Source of the DNA: Methanococcoides sp. LMO-2
Lineage (GTDB): Archaea; Halobacteriota; Methanosarcinia; Methanosarcinales; Methanosarcinaceae
Direction of reading: 5' to 3'
DNA: 64,000 bases
Assembly (NCBI RefSeq): GCF_038432375.1
Contig: NZ_JBCAUS010000007.1
Span: 124,001-188,000, forward strand
Shown: positions 33,543 to 39,652 of the stretch, in pieces
Position numbering within the stretch: position 1 is the first letter of the stretch
How the letters are laid out: every line of letters begins with the position of its first letter
The notes under the pieces: model-generated
Databases searched by the model: none
What the model was told of the DNA's origin: nothing
What the model saw: only the letters and a program-made list of their open reading frames with translations
Made by a program: the position numbers and the translations under genes

Positions 33543-34238
33543 ATGAGCCAATTATTAAAAAATATTTTTTTAAAATTTTACGAACTAATTAAATTTAGGA
33601 TTTACAAGAATAATCTTGCTAATTGCCAAATCGAATATTTAGGATCTGATTATGGTGGGTGGGCATTTTGTCCTGTAAACATCGATGAGAATAGTATTGT
33701 TTATTCTTTTGGCATTGGTGAAGATATTTCTTGGGATGAGGCTTTGATTAAACAAAAAAATGTAATAGTTAATGGATTTGATCCTACCCCAAGAGCAATT
33801 GAATTTGCAAAAAATAAGAATATAGATAAATTTGTAATTCACCCGAAGGGTATTGCTTCATCAAATGGGTACATGGACTTTTTCCCTCCAAAAAATCCAG
33901 ACCATGTGTCACACTCTTTGGTGGCAAAGAACAATAGTTCAGATGAAGCTATAAAAGTAAAGGTTGAAACAATCGACACAATAATGGAGGAATTAGGTCA
34001 CAAAAAGATCGATATTCTAAAGATGGATATCGAGGGCTCAGAATATGAAGTCATAGCAGACATGCTCAATAAAAGAATTTATCCTGAACAATTACTAATA
34101 GAATTTCATCATCGTTTTGAACCTTTCACCATAGATGAAACTATTGAAACTATCAACAAATTAATTGAAAACTCATATAAGATCAATTACATTTCTAAGA
34201 ACAATCAGGATTTTTCGTTTATCAGAAAACTCGACTGA
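33543..34238 (+). CDS. FkbM-family methyltransferase
   Basis: A 231-residue SAM-dependent O-methyltransferase. Motif I region is IVYSFGIGEDISWDEALI, motif II-like VNGFDPTPRAIEFAKN, and the FkbM signature is IDILKMDIEGSEYEVIADML. It probably methylates a glycan hydroxyl. It is the only gene on the plus strand inside the glycan cluster, and its last 17 bases overlap the neighbouring glycosyltransferase on the other strand. The gene is AT-rich with many AAA/ATT codons, unlike the housekeeping genes here. Confidence 0.9.
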   Translation: MSQLLKNIFLKFYELIKFRIYKNNLANCQIEYLGSDYGGWAFCPVNIDENSIVYSFGIGEDISWDEALIKQKNVIVNGFDPTPRAIEFAKNKNIDKFVIHPKGIASSNGYMDFFPPKNPDHVSHSLVAKNNSSDEAIKVKVETIDTIMEELGHKKIDILKMDIEGSEYEVIADMLNKRIYPEQLLIEFHHRFEPFTIDETIETINKLIENSYKINYISKNNQDFSFIRKLD

Positions 34239-35160
34239 TCAATGAAATAAAAGGGTCGATAAATTTGCCAAATCTGTGATGACAAACATAAAACATTTTT
34301 TTAAACAAATTTCCAGTCTGAAAATCAGAATAGGATTTTACAATCCTATTATCAGGAATTATTGCATCAGGGAATGCAATTGTGCTTGTTTTTTGCTTAT
34401 TGATCTGGACATCATATCTTCCATCAGCAGAACAATGAACCCCACTGCCATCATGCCCTATATTCATTATCCTGGACCTCACCGGATTTATGGAAAGCCC
34501 ATCATGCATAATTATGTTGATAGCCCAAAAAACAGCCCACGAATCGATCTTGCCTTCGATCTGCCATTTTAACATTGTATACAAATCCAACCCTGCACGA
34601 TCTACTTTTTTCTTTATTGATATTGAACTATCAATTGTCTTTAGTATCCCGGAATCCTTGGAATAGTATTTCCATGCCCTTCTCCAAGTACCCCATCCCC
34701 ATGATGAAAAGCGGTAAGAGAAATATATGTCGTAAGTATAATCATCTGGTATCATGATTGGGGGAGCATAACCACTCACATTCATTATTCTTTCATCAGA
34801 TTCATAATTATCAAGGCAAATGTTCATGAACTGTAAGAAATCCTGAGAAGGATAACAATCATCCTCTAAAACAATTATACGATCATGCTTCTGCAATACA
34901 TAATTTATACCATCTACAAGAGACCTTGCCAACCCTTTATTGCACTCATTCTCAATGATTGTGACATTTTCCAGTTCATAAGAATGGATTAATTCACGTG
35001 TCGATCGAACAGAATCCAAATCCTTTTCGCTCTTTGCTCCATCACAGAAAACATAAAGTAAGCTTTCTGTAAATCCAGGATTTGTCACAAGACTTTCAAG
35101 TGTCCTGCGGGTGTGATTACGTCGATTGTATACGAATAAGGCTATTGGAGCAAGTTTCAT
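34222..35160 (-). CDS. Glycosyltransferase (GT-A, GNT-I/family 2-like)
   Basis: A 312-residue GT-A protein. It begins LAPIALFVYNRRNHTRRTLESL, with LYVFCDGAKSEKDLDSV and the metal-binding IIVLEDDCYPSQDFLQFMN. The SSWGWGTWRRAWKYY block is typical of a group of sugar transferases near O-antigen loci. Donor and acceptor are unknown. It starts a run of minus-strand genes that differ from the flanking genes in base composition. Confidence 0.85.
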   Translation of the reverse strand: MKLAPIALFVYNRRNHTRRTLESLVTNPGFTESLLYVFCDGAKSEKDLDSVRSTRELIHSYELENVTIIENECNKGLARSLVDGINYVLQKHDRIIVLEDDCYPSQDFLQFMNICLDNYESDERIMNVSGYAPPIMIPDDYTYDIYFSYRFSSWGWGTWRRAWKYYSKDSGILKTIDSSISIKKKVDRAGLDLYTMLKWQIEGKIDSWAVFWAINIIMHDGLSINPVRSRIMNIGHDGSGVHCSADGRYDVQINKQKTSTIAFPDAIIPDNRIVKSYSDFQTGNLFKKMFYVCHHRFGKFIDPFISLISRVF

Positions 35161-35249: not shown

Positions 35250-36398
35250 TCAATTTTGTAATAATGAAGAATATAAGCTTATCATCTTTTTGTTTTGCAC
35301 ATCTGATGAAAAAAAAGCTTTTGCTCTCGACTTTCCAGACTGTCCCATCATGTATCTAAATTTTTCATTATCTAGTAGTTTAATAATTTGTGCCACAAAA
35401 CATTCTATGTCATCGGGTGGACAGATAAAACCAGTTTCACCATTTATAACTGATTCAGGTAAGCCACCAACATCGGATGTAACACAGGGTAATCCATGTG
35501 CCATAGCTTCTACAACTGATATTCCATGGCTTTCGAGTAGACTTGGCTGGAAATAGATAGTGCTCTGTTTATACAAGGATTCTACGTTGCTTTGATGTCC
35601 TATGAATTTAATGCCTTCTAACCCCATCTGTTTCACTATATAGTTACATTCTTCCAGAAGATTTCCTTCTCCTGCCCAGATGAATTCAATTGGTATATCT
35701 GGTCTTTGTCTAATTACTTCTTGGGCTACTCCTATCCATATTTTTGGGTTTTTGTACCATATGACATGTCCTAATGTTAGAACTCGGTAAATGTTTGTAT
35801 TTTCATTCTGGATATGGCCTTCAACAAAACATTTTTTGCTCACAGAATTGTAAATTACTTTAATATAATCGCTTTTTTGTGCAGGCACCCATAAGTCTAG
35901 AATCTGCTTTTTTGAATATTCTGAAACCGTAGTTAGCATTTTATTACGATTTAAAAAAATCCTCAAAAACGTTTTTTGTATACTGCTAAGACATATTATC
36001 TTGGTCCATAAAGGATAGGTATGAAAGGTATAAATAAACTTTACAGGAAATAAAATCAATCCTATGAACATACCAGGAGTACCATTTGATACTACTATCA
36101 TATCTGGATTTTCTTTAATGTAGATCGGCAAAATTGAAATGATATCAAAAAGAAGGTTCACTGGAAAATAACGCAGGAATCTCATAAAACCTTTATCTCT
36201 TGAAGGAATTATATGGAATCTGCACTTGTAACACTCTAAGAGAGACTTTATTTCATCATCCAACTGATTTCTGCACAGTGCAATTGAAACTTCATAGCCC
36301 TGTGAAGAATAAAAGTTAAGCAAATAATAAAAATAATTGCGTGTACCTCCGGATGAGCTGAATTCCGGAACCAACAATAATTTATATTCATCAGACAT
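35250..36398 (-). CDS. Family 4 glycosyltransferase
   Basis: A 382-residue GT-B enzyme. The N-terminal FSSSGGTRNYFYYLLNFYSSQGYEV binds the acceptor side, and the donor domain has LGHVIWYKNPKIWIGVAQEVI, FIGHQSNVESLYKQ and the Glu-rich SLLESHGISVVEAMAHGLPCVTSD, where E-x7-E holds the nucleotide sugar. The protein retains the mechanism, so it is likely functional. It is AT-rich. It begins 10 bases after the stop of the amber-interrupted transferase gene. Confidence 0.9.
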   Translation of the reverse strand: MSDEYKLLLVPEFSSSGGTRNYFYYLLNFYSSQGYEVSIALCRNQLDDEIKSLLECYKCRFHIIPSRDKGFMRFLRYFPVNLLFDIISILPIYIKENPDMIVVSNGTPGMFIGLILFPVKFIYTFHTYPLWTKIICLSSIQKTFLRIFLNRNKMLTTVSEYSKKQILDLWVPAQKSDYIKVIYNSVSKKCFVEGHIQNENTNIYRVLTLGHVIWYKNPKIWIGVAQEVIRQRPDIPIEFIWAGEGNLLEECNYIVKQMGLEGIKFIGHQSNVESLYKQSTIYFQPSLLESHGISVVEAMAHGLPCVTSDVGGLPESVINGETGFICPPDDIECFVAQIIKLLDNEKFRYMMGQSGKSRAKAFFSSDVQNKKMISLYSSLLQN

Positions 36399-36408
36399 TT
36401 CTACTCGT

Positions 36409-37410
36409 TTAGGCTATTAAGGATTTAGCAAGTATATATACATGCTTATAAAAAATACTATGCTTTCTTAATGGCGAATTCCAGTAAATTGACCATGTAT
36501 TTAACCCCAATCCTGCAGCTGCTCTACATATGAAAAACCATCTTTCAGCAAGAACACGAGTAAATTGTGGTTCGGGATAAAAATGTGTTTTTGAATTTGC
36601 TTTTTGAAGTTTTAAGAGCCATTCATTAGCAAACAAAATAAAATCATTTGACGCTTCAAATTTCCAACCTCCTATTTTTTGGTGCATTTGTTTTTCTTCA
36701 TTTGAAGGCAAAACATGCATTTTTTTAAGTTGTCTTTCTTGTATGTTCCAAACAGATGATTTTTGATTAAGTACATTTATTTTAGAGGTTTGATTATCAT
36801 GAATACGGTAGTATGTCAAAAATTTAGGAATGTTTGTTATTTTATAACAACCAGAAAGACGCTCCCATAAATCATAATCTTCTGCAGGAGGATAGTTCAA
36901 GTCAAAATGTTGATTCTACCCAATAAATAATTTTTTTCTTAGCATAACTGATGAAGTCGCCAATGGATCATCAAAAAGCATTCGACCGCGTATAAAATTA
37001 GGATTTGTGGGATAACGCCATTTGTGAGTCACTTTAGTACCAATCGTTTTCACCCATGTTCCACAAATTCCTACATCGGGATGACTATCCAGTAATTTTA
37101 CTTGCTTCTCTAATCTTAATGGATGACTTATGTCATCAGCATCCAACCATGCAATATATTCGCCTTTTGCTTCATAGATGCCTTTATTTCTTACTTTTGC
37201 CAAACCACTATTTTCTTCATTATTAAGTAATCTAATGCGCGAATCATTGTGTGATTCAATAATTGCTTTACTTTTATCATTTGACCCATCGTTTATAATC
37301 AAAAGTTCAAAGTTTTTAAATGATTGATTCAAAATACTTTCGATAGCATCTTTCAGATATTTTTCTGCATTATATACAGGCATAATAACTGATACTTTAA
37401 AATCTTTCAA
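36409..37410 (-). CDS. Family 2 glycosyltransferase with an in-frame amber codon
   Basis: One GT2 gene of 334 codons broken only by a TAG at 36916-36918 (codon 165). Upstream is the normal donor-binding half: VSVIMPVYNAEKYLKDAIES, LLIINDGSNDKSKAI, YIAWLDADD and SSVMLRKKLFIG. After TAG the same frame continues NQHFDLNYPPAEDYDLWERL, the usual acceptor-side motif of the family, and runs 168 codons without another stop to TAA. There is no frameshift or deletion. It can be a recent nonsense mutation, or the TAG can be decoded as pyrrolysine, as in Methanosarcinaceae. The start TTG at 37410 follows GAGGTTGAG; TTG at 37419 is possible. Confidence 0.75.
36916..36918 (-). other. In-frame UAG codon, possible pyrrolysine site
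   Basis: The codon context is ATT GGG TAG AAT CAA. Homologous GT2 proteins have an ordinary residue here, just before the conserved ED(Y)DLW motif. No other in-frame stop interrupts the gene. Decoding needs PylT and PylS, which are not in this window. Whether it is read through is not shown by sequence. Confidence 0.5.
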
Positions 37411-38446
37411 ATTGCTCAACCTCTTTAATGCTATCTAGGTCATTTCGTTTTGTAAATGTAATATCAATTTCCTGATGTGCACTTTCGTTTACAAAACCAT
37501 AAAGTGCACGATAATCGATTTGCATTCCATGATTCCACTGATTTAATAAATAATCTTGGTGAATTGTTCCATGTATATTATCATTAGTATCTTGAACTTT
37601 ATTCATTGGAATGTTAATAATTTTTGATTTCTTGTAGCATACACCATATCGATGTTTGAAATACCTAAGTTGTTTCTGTAAATTGCTCTCAAATGTGTTA
37701 GGAGAATTAAAATTTATACTCTTTGCAAGAGCAATTATTTCACGTGTTAAAAAAAGATTGCCATCTACTGATAATGGATATGCCCAATCCAACTCTCCAT
37801 CTTCCCATTTCCAACAAAGTTTATCTGAATCTTGGATTATATCTGAAATGAATGGTGGTAATTGTTGTTCTTTCTGTAAAGTGTATGCTCTTTTTAAGTT
37901 TGCTCCTAAGCGAAGAGATATGATTGTAGTTCGAGGATCAAACTTTGCGAAATCGAACACATCCATATCTTCGATAAATATAATGTCATCTACTAAAAAG
38001 AATACCTTTTCAGCTTTTATGGATTCAAGGATTGTGATAAGCTGCTTTTTAAAAGAACCTTTGTCTTTTTGAGAAACTGGAAAAATCTGCTTCTCATCAA
38101 AAAGAGAAAAAACACTATCATAAGCTTTTTGATGAGGATTTGATGATGCTCTGTATAAGACATGCACTGGAACTGACGGGGTTACTTTCTCAAAGTAAGA
38201 CGAAAGTAATGCGTGAAGTTGAATTGCCCTATCCATAGAAAAAATAATACATTCAGCTGGGTGTTCATTATTGGTTTTATGTGGAGTTGTATAAACATCA
38301 ACTAATTTTTTACAAATACAATTTTCTTTCTTAACAATAATGAAATTTAGACTTAACAGTAGTACATTAATAAATCGAACAATCAAACCAATACATTTTT
38401 GGATAGCAGAATTAATAACACTCATAAGAAGTTTTAATATTGCCAT
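37397..38446 (-). CDS. Probable glycosyltransferase-like protein of the surface-glycan locus
   Basis: A 349-residue protein with an N-terminal hydrophobic region (about 25-40), then CIIFSMDRAIQLHALLSSYFE, VPVHVLYRAS and a KVFFLVDDIIFIEDMDVF stretch whose DD could be the metal site of a GT-A fold. WKWEDGELDWAYPLSVDGNLFLTREII resembles the acceptor side of such enzymes. I cannot assign a family firmly. The ATG at 38446 follows GGTGAAAGGG; a GTG lies 15 bases upstream. Its end overlaps the start region of the amber GT2 gene. Confidence 0.65.
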   Translation of the reverse strand: MAILKLLMSVINSAIQKCIGLIVRFINVLLLSLNFIIVKKENCICKKLVDVYTTPHKTNNEHPAECIIFSMDRAIQLHALLSSYFEKVTPSVPVHVLYRASSNPHQKAYDSVFSLFDEKQIFPVSQKDKGSFKKQLITILESIKAEKVFFLVDDIIFIEDMDVFDFAKFDPRTTIISLRLGANLKRAYTLQKEQQLPPFISDIIQDSDKLCWKWEDGELDWAYPLSVDGNLFLTREIIALAKSINFNSPNTFESNLQKQLRYFKHRYGVCYKKSKIINIPMNKVQDTNDNIHGTIHQDYLLNQWNHGMQIDYRALYGFVNESAHQEIDITFTKRNDLDSIKEVEQFERF

Positions 38447-38717
38447 ATTATTCCCTTTCACCCTTTTTTAAACCAAAAACATCCACACGATAATTTTGTT
38501 TATTGCCCATATTATCTCCACCTTCCAATATTAAACCACGCTTTCAAAACGCTTAGTAACAATATTAAAGCAAATACTTATAACTTGAAATTTTAAAAGA
38601 GTTATTTTAAGCTATCGTTATATTGAGTCTACACAAATGTTTAAGATTAATTTATGTCATCTAAATTTTTTAGATCTATTTAAAAGTAATCATAGGGATA
38701 TGCTTTAGACATTTATT
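38447..38717. other. Intergenic region before the insertion sequence
   Basis: 271 bases, strongly AT-rich, with no ORF. The last seven bases (ATTTATT, 38711-38717) are the left copy of the direct repeat flanking the insertion sequence. The rest would have been the upstream region of the glycosyltransferase-like gene. TATA-like candidates are many, and none stands out. Confidence 0.4.
38711..38717. repeat. Left copy of target-site direct repeat
   Basis: ATTTATT, matched by an identical copy at 39653-39659 on the other side of the insertion sequence. A seven-base match in AT-rich DNA could partly be chance, but both copies touch the inverted ends. Confidence 0.5.
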
Positions 38718-39652
38718 GGCTTTGTAGAAATCCTCACTATAACTAAAAACACAATCTTGACAAATCTCTCAAGATTGTGCAATATCACTTTGAATTTGAC
38801 TTCCTTTACCTGATTTCTATACTTTCTTGCTCACAAATTCTCCCCATATTTCCTCATCAAATTCATTTAACATCTTCTTTCGATATCTTCCTCTCTCGTT
38901 GTCTTAATGGAACAACTGCTATTGACCTGAGTTTTTCTCTTGTCAGCTCATGGATAGTTTCAGAATCATATGCTTTATCCATCACATAATAGAGTGATCT
39001 CCTGTTACGATGACAATGCAATAGCAATGTTTTTGCATGCTTAGCATCATGAACAGGTTTCCCGGAGATCTTTTATCCAGTAATCACAAATCTGTGAACA
39101 TCAACTGAAATACTTGTTTTGACATAACTTCTTCTCCATTTTTGATTCTCTAGGAGTAATAGTTACTACAATAACCACTTGTAAAACCAGTTGAATCAAT
39201 ACCATTAACGTCAATTGACTCGCCATTTTTGTAAAATAGGTCCAATGTTCTCTTAAAGATATGATCAAGTATTGCAGAATAAATTCTAGTAACGAACTTT
39301 TGAAGTGTTGTAAAATGGGTTACCTTATCCAATTCAAATTTTGATTGAATAGAATCCATTAATTCAACGATCTCAACAAAATCTCGATAATCTTCTCCTA
39401 AATACTCATTGAACAAAACCAATGTCAATAGCTGATGTTGTGTATATGTTTGTTTTGAGTATTTGCAACTGTAGAGTGGAAAGTGTGAATATCGTGTTAC
39501 TTGCAATGCTATATCAATAAAATTTAAGTACTTGTTAGACAAAACACAGTCATATCCTTGTGTTTTTGTTGGCAAACAGTCACAGGTGACTTATTCTTAT
39601 AAAAAATGTAGTGACTCAGTTGAGGTTAGAGAAGAGGATTTCTACAGAGCCC
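38718..39652 (-). mobile_element. Decayed insertion sequence of the IS4/IS5-like DDE group
   Basis: A 935-base element. Inverted ends match over 18 bases with one mismatch: left 38718-38735 (GGCTTTGTAGAAATCCTC) and right 39634-39651 (reverse complement GGCTCTGTAGAAATCCTC). The flanks are ATTTATT at 38711-38717 and 39653-39659, a likely target duplication. It holds one broken transposase. It separates the glycosyltransferase-like gene from the flippase gene, so it inserted in the glycan locus. Family placement comes from the protein look, not a search. Confidence 0.8.
38725..39575 (-). pseudogene. Transposase remnant
   Basis: The intact first part (141 residues, 39575 to 39150) reads LLTLVLFNEYLGEDYRDFVE and ends GIDSTGFTSGY with the first DDE Asp. 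It is then cut by TAG, and the protein continues in another frame with SYVKTSISVDVHRFVITG, a TAA, and ISGKPVHDAKHAKTLL and YVMDKAYDSETIHEL (second Asp). About 50 residues are missing before the terminal KFKVILHNLERFVKIV. One frameshift, more than one stop and a deletion show that it is dead. Confidence 0.85.

Follow-up and report, generated by a model that had tools for sequence, protein, structure and literature searches.

On the minus strand of the window (the whole stretch of DNA analysed here, 64,000 nt of the LMO-2 genome, hereafter G000), a cluster of glycan genes includes a GT2 glycosyltransferase gene with a single in-frame TAG (Table 1). The GT4-type gene downstream begins 10 bases past the TAA of GT2, and G089, a genome of another genus, has the upstream gene, GT2 and GT4 in the same arrangement. 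No ATG start was found for the GT2 frame, leaving two TTG candidates, of which the one at 37410 lines up with the start, likewise TTG, of the 74% identical orthologue in G089. From this TTG the frame runs to 36409 with the TAG (36918-36916) as its sole internal stop, confirming the original prediction that the frame is kept on both sides of one TAG at codon 165. That prediction had also stated that all complete genes of the window whose stops were read (more than 50) use TAA or TGA and none TAG, and this holds for all 53 other called genes; the only other TAG-ended ORF of the window (39575-39150) is a piece of a decayed transposase.

Table 1. Coordinates of GT2, its internal TAG, and neighbouring genes within the window.
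Feature	Position	Strand	Remarks
GT2 glycosyltransferase gene	36409..37419	minus	TTG start 37410 (likely) or 37419; TAA stop 36411-36409
Single in-frame TAG of GT2	36916..36918	minus	codon 165 from TTG 37410; 168/336 from TTG 37419
Gene directly upstream in operon, overlaps GT2 start	37397..38461	minus	no Pfam match; 71% identical counterpart in G089
GT4-type glycosyltransferase directly downstream	35250..36398	minus	PF00534 E 3.8e-33; 66% identical counterpart in G089
Further GT2-like gene of the cluster	34222..35160	minus	PF00535 E 9e-7

The GT2 gene product is predicted, from sequence and modelled structure, to be a sugar-transferring enzyme. Its assignment to the GT2 family is based on a profile match above cut-off (Pfam Glycos_transf_2, PF00535, E 1.8e-40, 139 bits against a cut-off of 23.3), a GT-A fold, and conserved acidic DxD and ED motifs, with D93, D95 and D96 being invariant and D181 nearly so. 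A second profile, Glyco_tranf_2_2 (PF10111), covers residues 10-204 and thus spans the TAG, which is residue 168 in the longer numbering. In an AF2 model built with lysine at the TAG position (pLDDT 91, pTM 0.88), GT2 forms one continuous fold, in which the TAG residue opens the loop between the helix of residues 163-167 and the EDYDLW helix. Judging from this model, termination at the TAG would strip the ED motif and the C-terminal helices from the protein. Both sequence and fold match solved GT-A enzymes, namely the WrtF fucosyltransferase, SpsA, and the chondroitin polymerase K4CP.

Full-length orthologues of GT2 were found in two genomes of another genus, G089 (74% identity) and G075 (67%). 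Because these homologues align over the codon without a gap (E 1e-177 and 2e-153), a chance origin of the intact frame is excluded. Aligning relatives at the codon, a check that the original prediction had suggested, found the TAG not to be conserved: the aligned codon is GAT in G089 and CAT in G075, and more distant homologues have F, N or L (TTT, AAT, CTT), so the position is a variable one. The TAG was found in no relative compared and is unique to the LMO-2 genome. At a threshold of E 1e-30, GT2 itself is missing from the close relatives, with the exception of a partial homologue in G006, and a scan of named GTDB contigs returned distant homologues only. Changes on the GT2 branch, counted as amino-acid to synonymous, stand at 9:14 before the TAG and at 15:7 after it; the latter may hint at relaxed constraint, at a level that is not significant (p 0.075), and a relative-rate test of GT2 against G089 was likewise not significant.

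The pylTSBCD genes, on whose presence the original prediction depended, are complete in G000 (2.31 Mb in 14 contigs, 99.9% complete), where tRNA-Pyl(cta), pylS, pylB, pylC and pylD lie in one cluster. PylS, PylB, PylC and PylD each exceed their NCBIfam equivalog cut-off, and PylS hits pyrrolysyl-tRNA synthetases of known structure at E 8e-130. Eight methylamine methyltransferase genes of this genome have one internal TAG each (MttB 3 of 4, MtmB-family 2 of 5, MtbB 3 of 3). Three features looked for in a UAG-encoded pyrrolysine protein (a host pyl set, homology on either side of the codon in one frame, and known Pyl proteins in the host) were found in the case of GT2. The genome has a single aRF1, in which the usual stop-recognition motifs NIKS and YxCxxxF are intact; a reassignment of TAG through the loss of these motifs was accordingly rejected.

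Genome-wide, TAG is rarely the end of a gene. In a sample of 1.645 Mb (71% of the genome), gene calling with the standard code gave 1300 gene-like ORFs, which end in TGA (697), TAA (581) or TAG (22). Since TAG makes up a 0.186 share of stop triplets in noncoding sequence, about 240 TAG ends would be expected from composition, in line with the amber depletion that the original prediction anticipated. The 22 TAG-ended ORFs include the eight methyltransferases, GT2, and seven more in which one protein family continues past the TAG: FpoH, IorA, Lyase_1 (of the aspartase/fumarase type), NAD(P)H-hydrate dehydratase, a histidine kinase, an FrhB-like protein, and a response regulator. Further cases are a DNA-repair glycosylase with a cysteine motif past its TAG (a weak family match) and a surface-repeat protein (L161) whose counterpart in the sister genome G010 has a TAG between matching flanks. 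Judged by sequence, the majority of the 22 TAGs are internal to their genes, and TAG lies inside many genes beyond methylamine metabolism, core ones included, as looked for under a Pyl code. A large protein (L175:9757-12522, minus strand, contig C8) also has a TAG, at roughly codon 713, beyond which lies a weak match to TOTE primase; its gene may belong to a mobile element or a conflict system.

Had nonsense mutation produced these TAGs, one would expect genes broken by TAA or TGA to be about four times commoner. Raw counts of in-frame extensions past TAA and TGA run too high where adjacent genes share the frame, and were therefore replaced by a start-distance filter (which restricts the control to candidates lacking an early start codon) together with a check of domain continuity. 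Of the 1278 TAA- or TGA-ended ORFs, 11 are followed by at least 40 codons of coding-like sequence in which no plausible start comes early, and in the 10 candidates checked against Pfam no domain crosses the stop; these candidates resemble neighbouring genes. With the methyltransferases and GT2 excluded, all seven within-family interruptions are TAG, an outcome with a chance of about 8e-6 at a TAG share of 0.186.

Two of these genes were followed into relatives. FpoH, a membrane subunit of F420H2 dehydrogenase (L174:16397-17440, minus strand, contig C4), has its TAG at codon 61 and scores 597 bits over the whole model, across the TAG. There is one FpoH match per genome within the genus; the TAG is shared with G010, where the protein is 100% identical, no stop is present in the nine other genus members, and the rest of the family lacks the TAG. 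IorA, the alpha subunit of indolepyruvate ferredoxin oxidoreductase (L119:13363-15246, plus strand, contig C2), has its TAG at codon 208 and scores 720 bits over residues 4-620, again across the TAG. One TAG is also found in the IorA gene of G005 and none in that of G010 (96% identical), and it follows that TAG sites come and go. In a 400 kb sample of G010, 5 of 326 genes end in TAG, at least four of these TAGs being internal, and internal TAGs were seen there in genes named by eye as biotin-carboxylase-like (L182:14466-15701, plus strand) and TnpB-like (L177:10567-11475, minus strand, with a zinc ribbon after the TAG). A sample of G006 has 11 TAG ends in 295 genes, five with short extensions, and TAG may be more bifunctional in that genome. 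In Pyl-containing archaea, UAG accounts for less than 6% of terminators (PMC9723677).

True TAG ends among the 22 could include those of pylB, hypF and an ambiguous gene in L118. In pylB (L081:7052-8164, plus strand, contig C6) the terminal TAG touches the start of pylC (TAGGATG). By residue 368 of 370 the PylB profile has already been matched in full, and one TAG is kept in the matched frame in 9 of 9 genus members searched and absent in two genomes of another genus; pylB probably ends at TAG in the nine genus members examined. A genus-conserved extension of 42 codons past the TAG was considered as selected coding sequence and rejected, as it overlaps pylC and its base differences sit on third positions of pylC codons, which seems to account for its conservation. 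The junction might serve to link the supply of Pyl with translation of pylC. The HypF-like gene (L140:5139-7415, plus strand) has a TAG followed directly by TGA, as if by a backup stop. As pylB is probably TAG-ended, TAG may still terminate somewhere.

What, then, might the TAG in GT2 be? One option is that GT2 is a young pseudogene, in which a nonsense TAG has arisen in a variable glycan cluster and yields a truncated, inactive protein or an incidental and useless read-through product. The cluster is indeed variable and holds a decayed transposase (38700-39640), the TAG is found in this genome only, GT2 is nearly absent from close relatives, and the changes after the TAG lean weakly to relaxed constraint. 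However, GT2 has a single lesion in a frame unbroken over 336 codons, and its identity to G089 (74%) equals or exceeds that of its neighbours (71% and 66%). Among the single-codon, within-family interruptions checked, all are TAG and none is TAA or TGA, and, provided that the codon is decoded, Pyl would be inserted even at a TAG of nonsense origin. We consider a pseudogene unlikely. The transposase remnant (39640-38700, minus strand) has several stops, one of them TAG, along with frame changes, and related copies occur in stretches of G006; by its sequence it is an example of what decay looks like here, in contrast to GT2.

A sequencing or assembly error, with a sense codon being the true one, would take only one base change, but the same TAG pattern recurs in many genes of this genome and in FpoH of G010, an independent genome, so that true TAGs are to be expected; we regard an error as very improbable. 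It is more improbable still, to the point of being barely credible, that GT2 is translated as two proteins, through a stop at the TAG and a restart just after it, with the halves acting together. An in-frame TTG does lie six codons past the TAG (ORF 36409-36900), yet there is no ATG and no Shine-Dalgarno-like start within 60 codons past the TAG, and the modelled fold is continuous, such that the cut would part the ED motif from the nucleotide-binding half.

The explanation that we favour, and consider likely, is that GT2 is made full length with pyrrolysine at the TAG, following a near-neutral change from a sense codon. The TAG is most likely read as pyrrolysine because TAG in this genome behaves almost wholly as a coding word. 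In the proposed mechanism, tRNA-Pyl(CUA) and PylS would insert pyrrolysine at the sole UAG of the GT2 mRNA, in competition with aRF1 and with no signal in cis, allowing a GT2 of about 333 residues, encoded in a surface-glycan operon, to be synthesised full length. No cis signal is required for Pyl insertion (PMC9499178, PMC8211752), and no PYLIS-like structured element was found 3' of the GT2 TAG (z 0.12). The TAG itself would have arisen recently, by a near-neutral substitution in a loop where the residue varies, and would be tolerated since this genome uses TAG in effect as a Pyl sense codon and almost never as a terminator. We infer efficient decoding of the UAG, pyrrolysine as the inserted residue, and no part for this residue in catalysis; its presence at this site is probably neutral, as has been proposed for Thg1.

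The Pyl reading of the original prediction is thus well supported by pylTSBCD, eight TAG-containing methyltransferases, the rarity of TAG ends, and housekeeping TAGs inside conserved domains. Its further suggestion, that full-length GT2 would be made in a growth-dependent way tied to methylamine use, found no support, given that the single, core FpoH gene carries a TAG shared with the sister species. Expression that depends on methylamines is in general unlikely, since cells growing on other substrates would then lack FpoH, and constitutive Pyl decoding is the more likely. We lean towards a wider reading, in which UAG is now a regular Pyl sense codon in this species and GT2, FpoH and other housekeeping proteins would contain Pyl in all growth conditions, despite the aRF1 motifs being kept.

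Our findings thereby point to a genome in which TAG nears a pure sense codon. Consequently, genes of this kind, FpoH included, will be truncated or missed by gene finders set to the standard code. The FpoH TAG also leads to a prediction, namely that pylT or pylS would be required for growth even without methylamines.

With respect to known systems, GT2 shares the GT-A fold and the conserved acidic motifs of WrtF, SpsA and K4CP, which to our knowledge are ordinary enzymes without Pyl. A "Pyl code", under which all TAG is pyrrolysine, has reportedly been described in archaea (by Kivenson et al. in Science in 2025). G000 is like these archaea in its near-absence of TAG terminators and in having TAG within housekeeping genes, and may depart from a pure Pyl code in that TAG could still be the terminator of pylB and hypF. 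The MtmB, MtbB and MttB proteins of Methanosarcinaceae have, like GT2, a single in-frame UAG served by the same pylTSBCD machinery; their pyrrolysine is conserved and in the active site, whereas the GT2 site is variable, in a loop, and a TAG in this genome only. As early as 2005, read-through candidates were predicted in Methanosarcina and Methanococcoides, the residues aligned with the UAG being varied (PMC1242214). UAG is also reported in the tRNA-His guanylyltransferase Thg1 and in transposases of some Methanosarcinales, the case of Thg1 being explained by neutral evolution (PMC8211752). Thg1 resembles GT2 in having its UAG outside methylamine metabolism and differs in protein family. Pyrrolysine outside the methyltransferases is already known, and GT2 adds one candidate to the short list of pyrrolysine proteins beyond methylamine metabolism.
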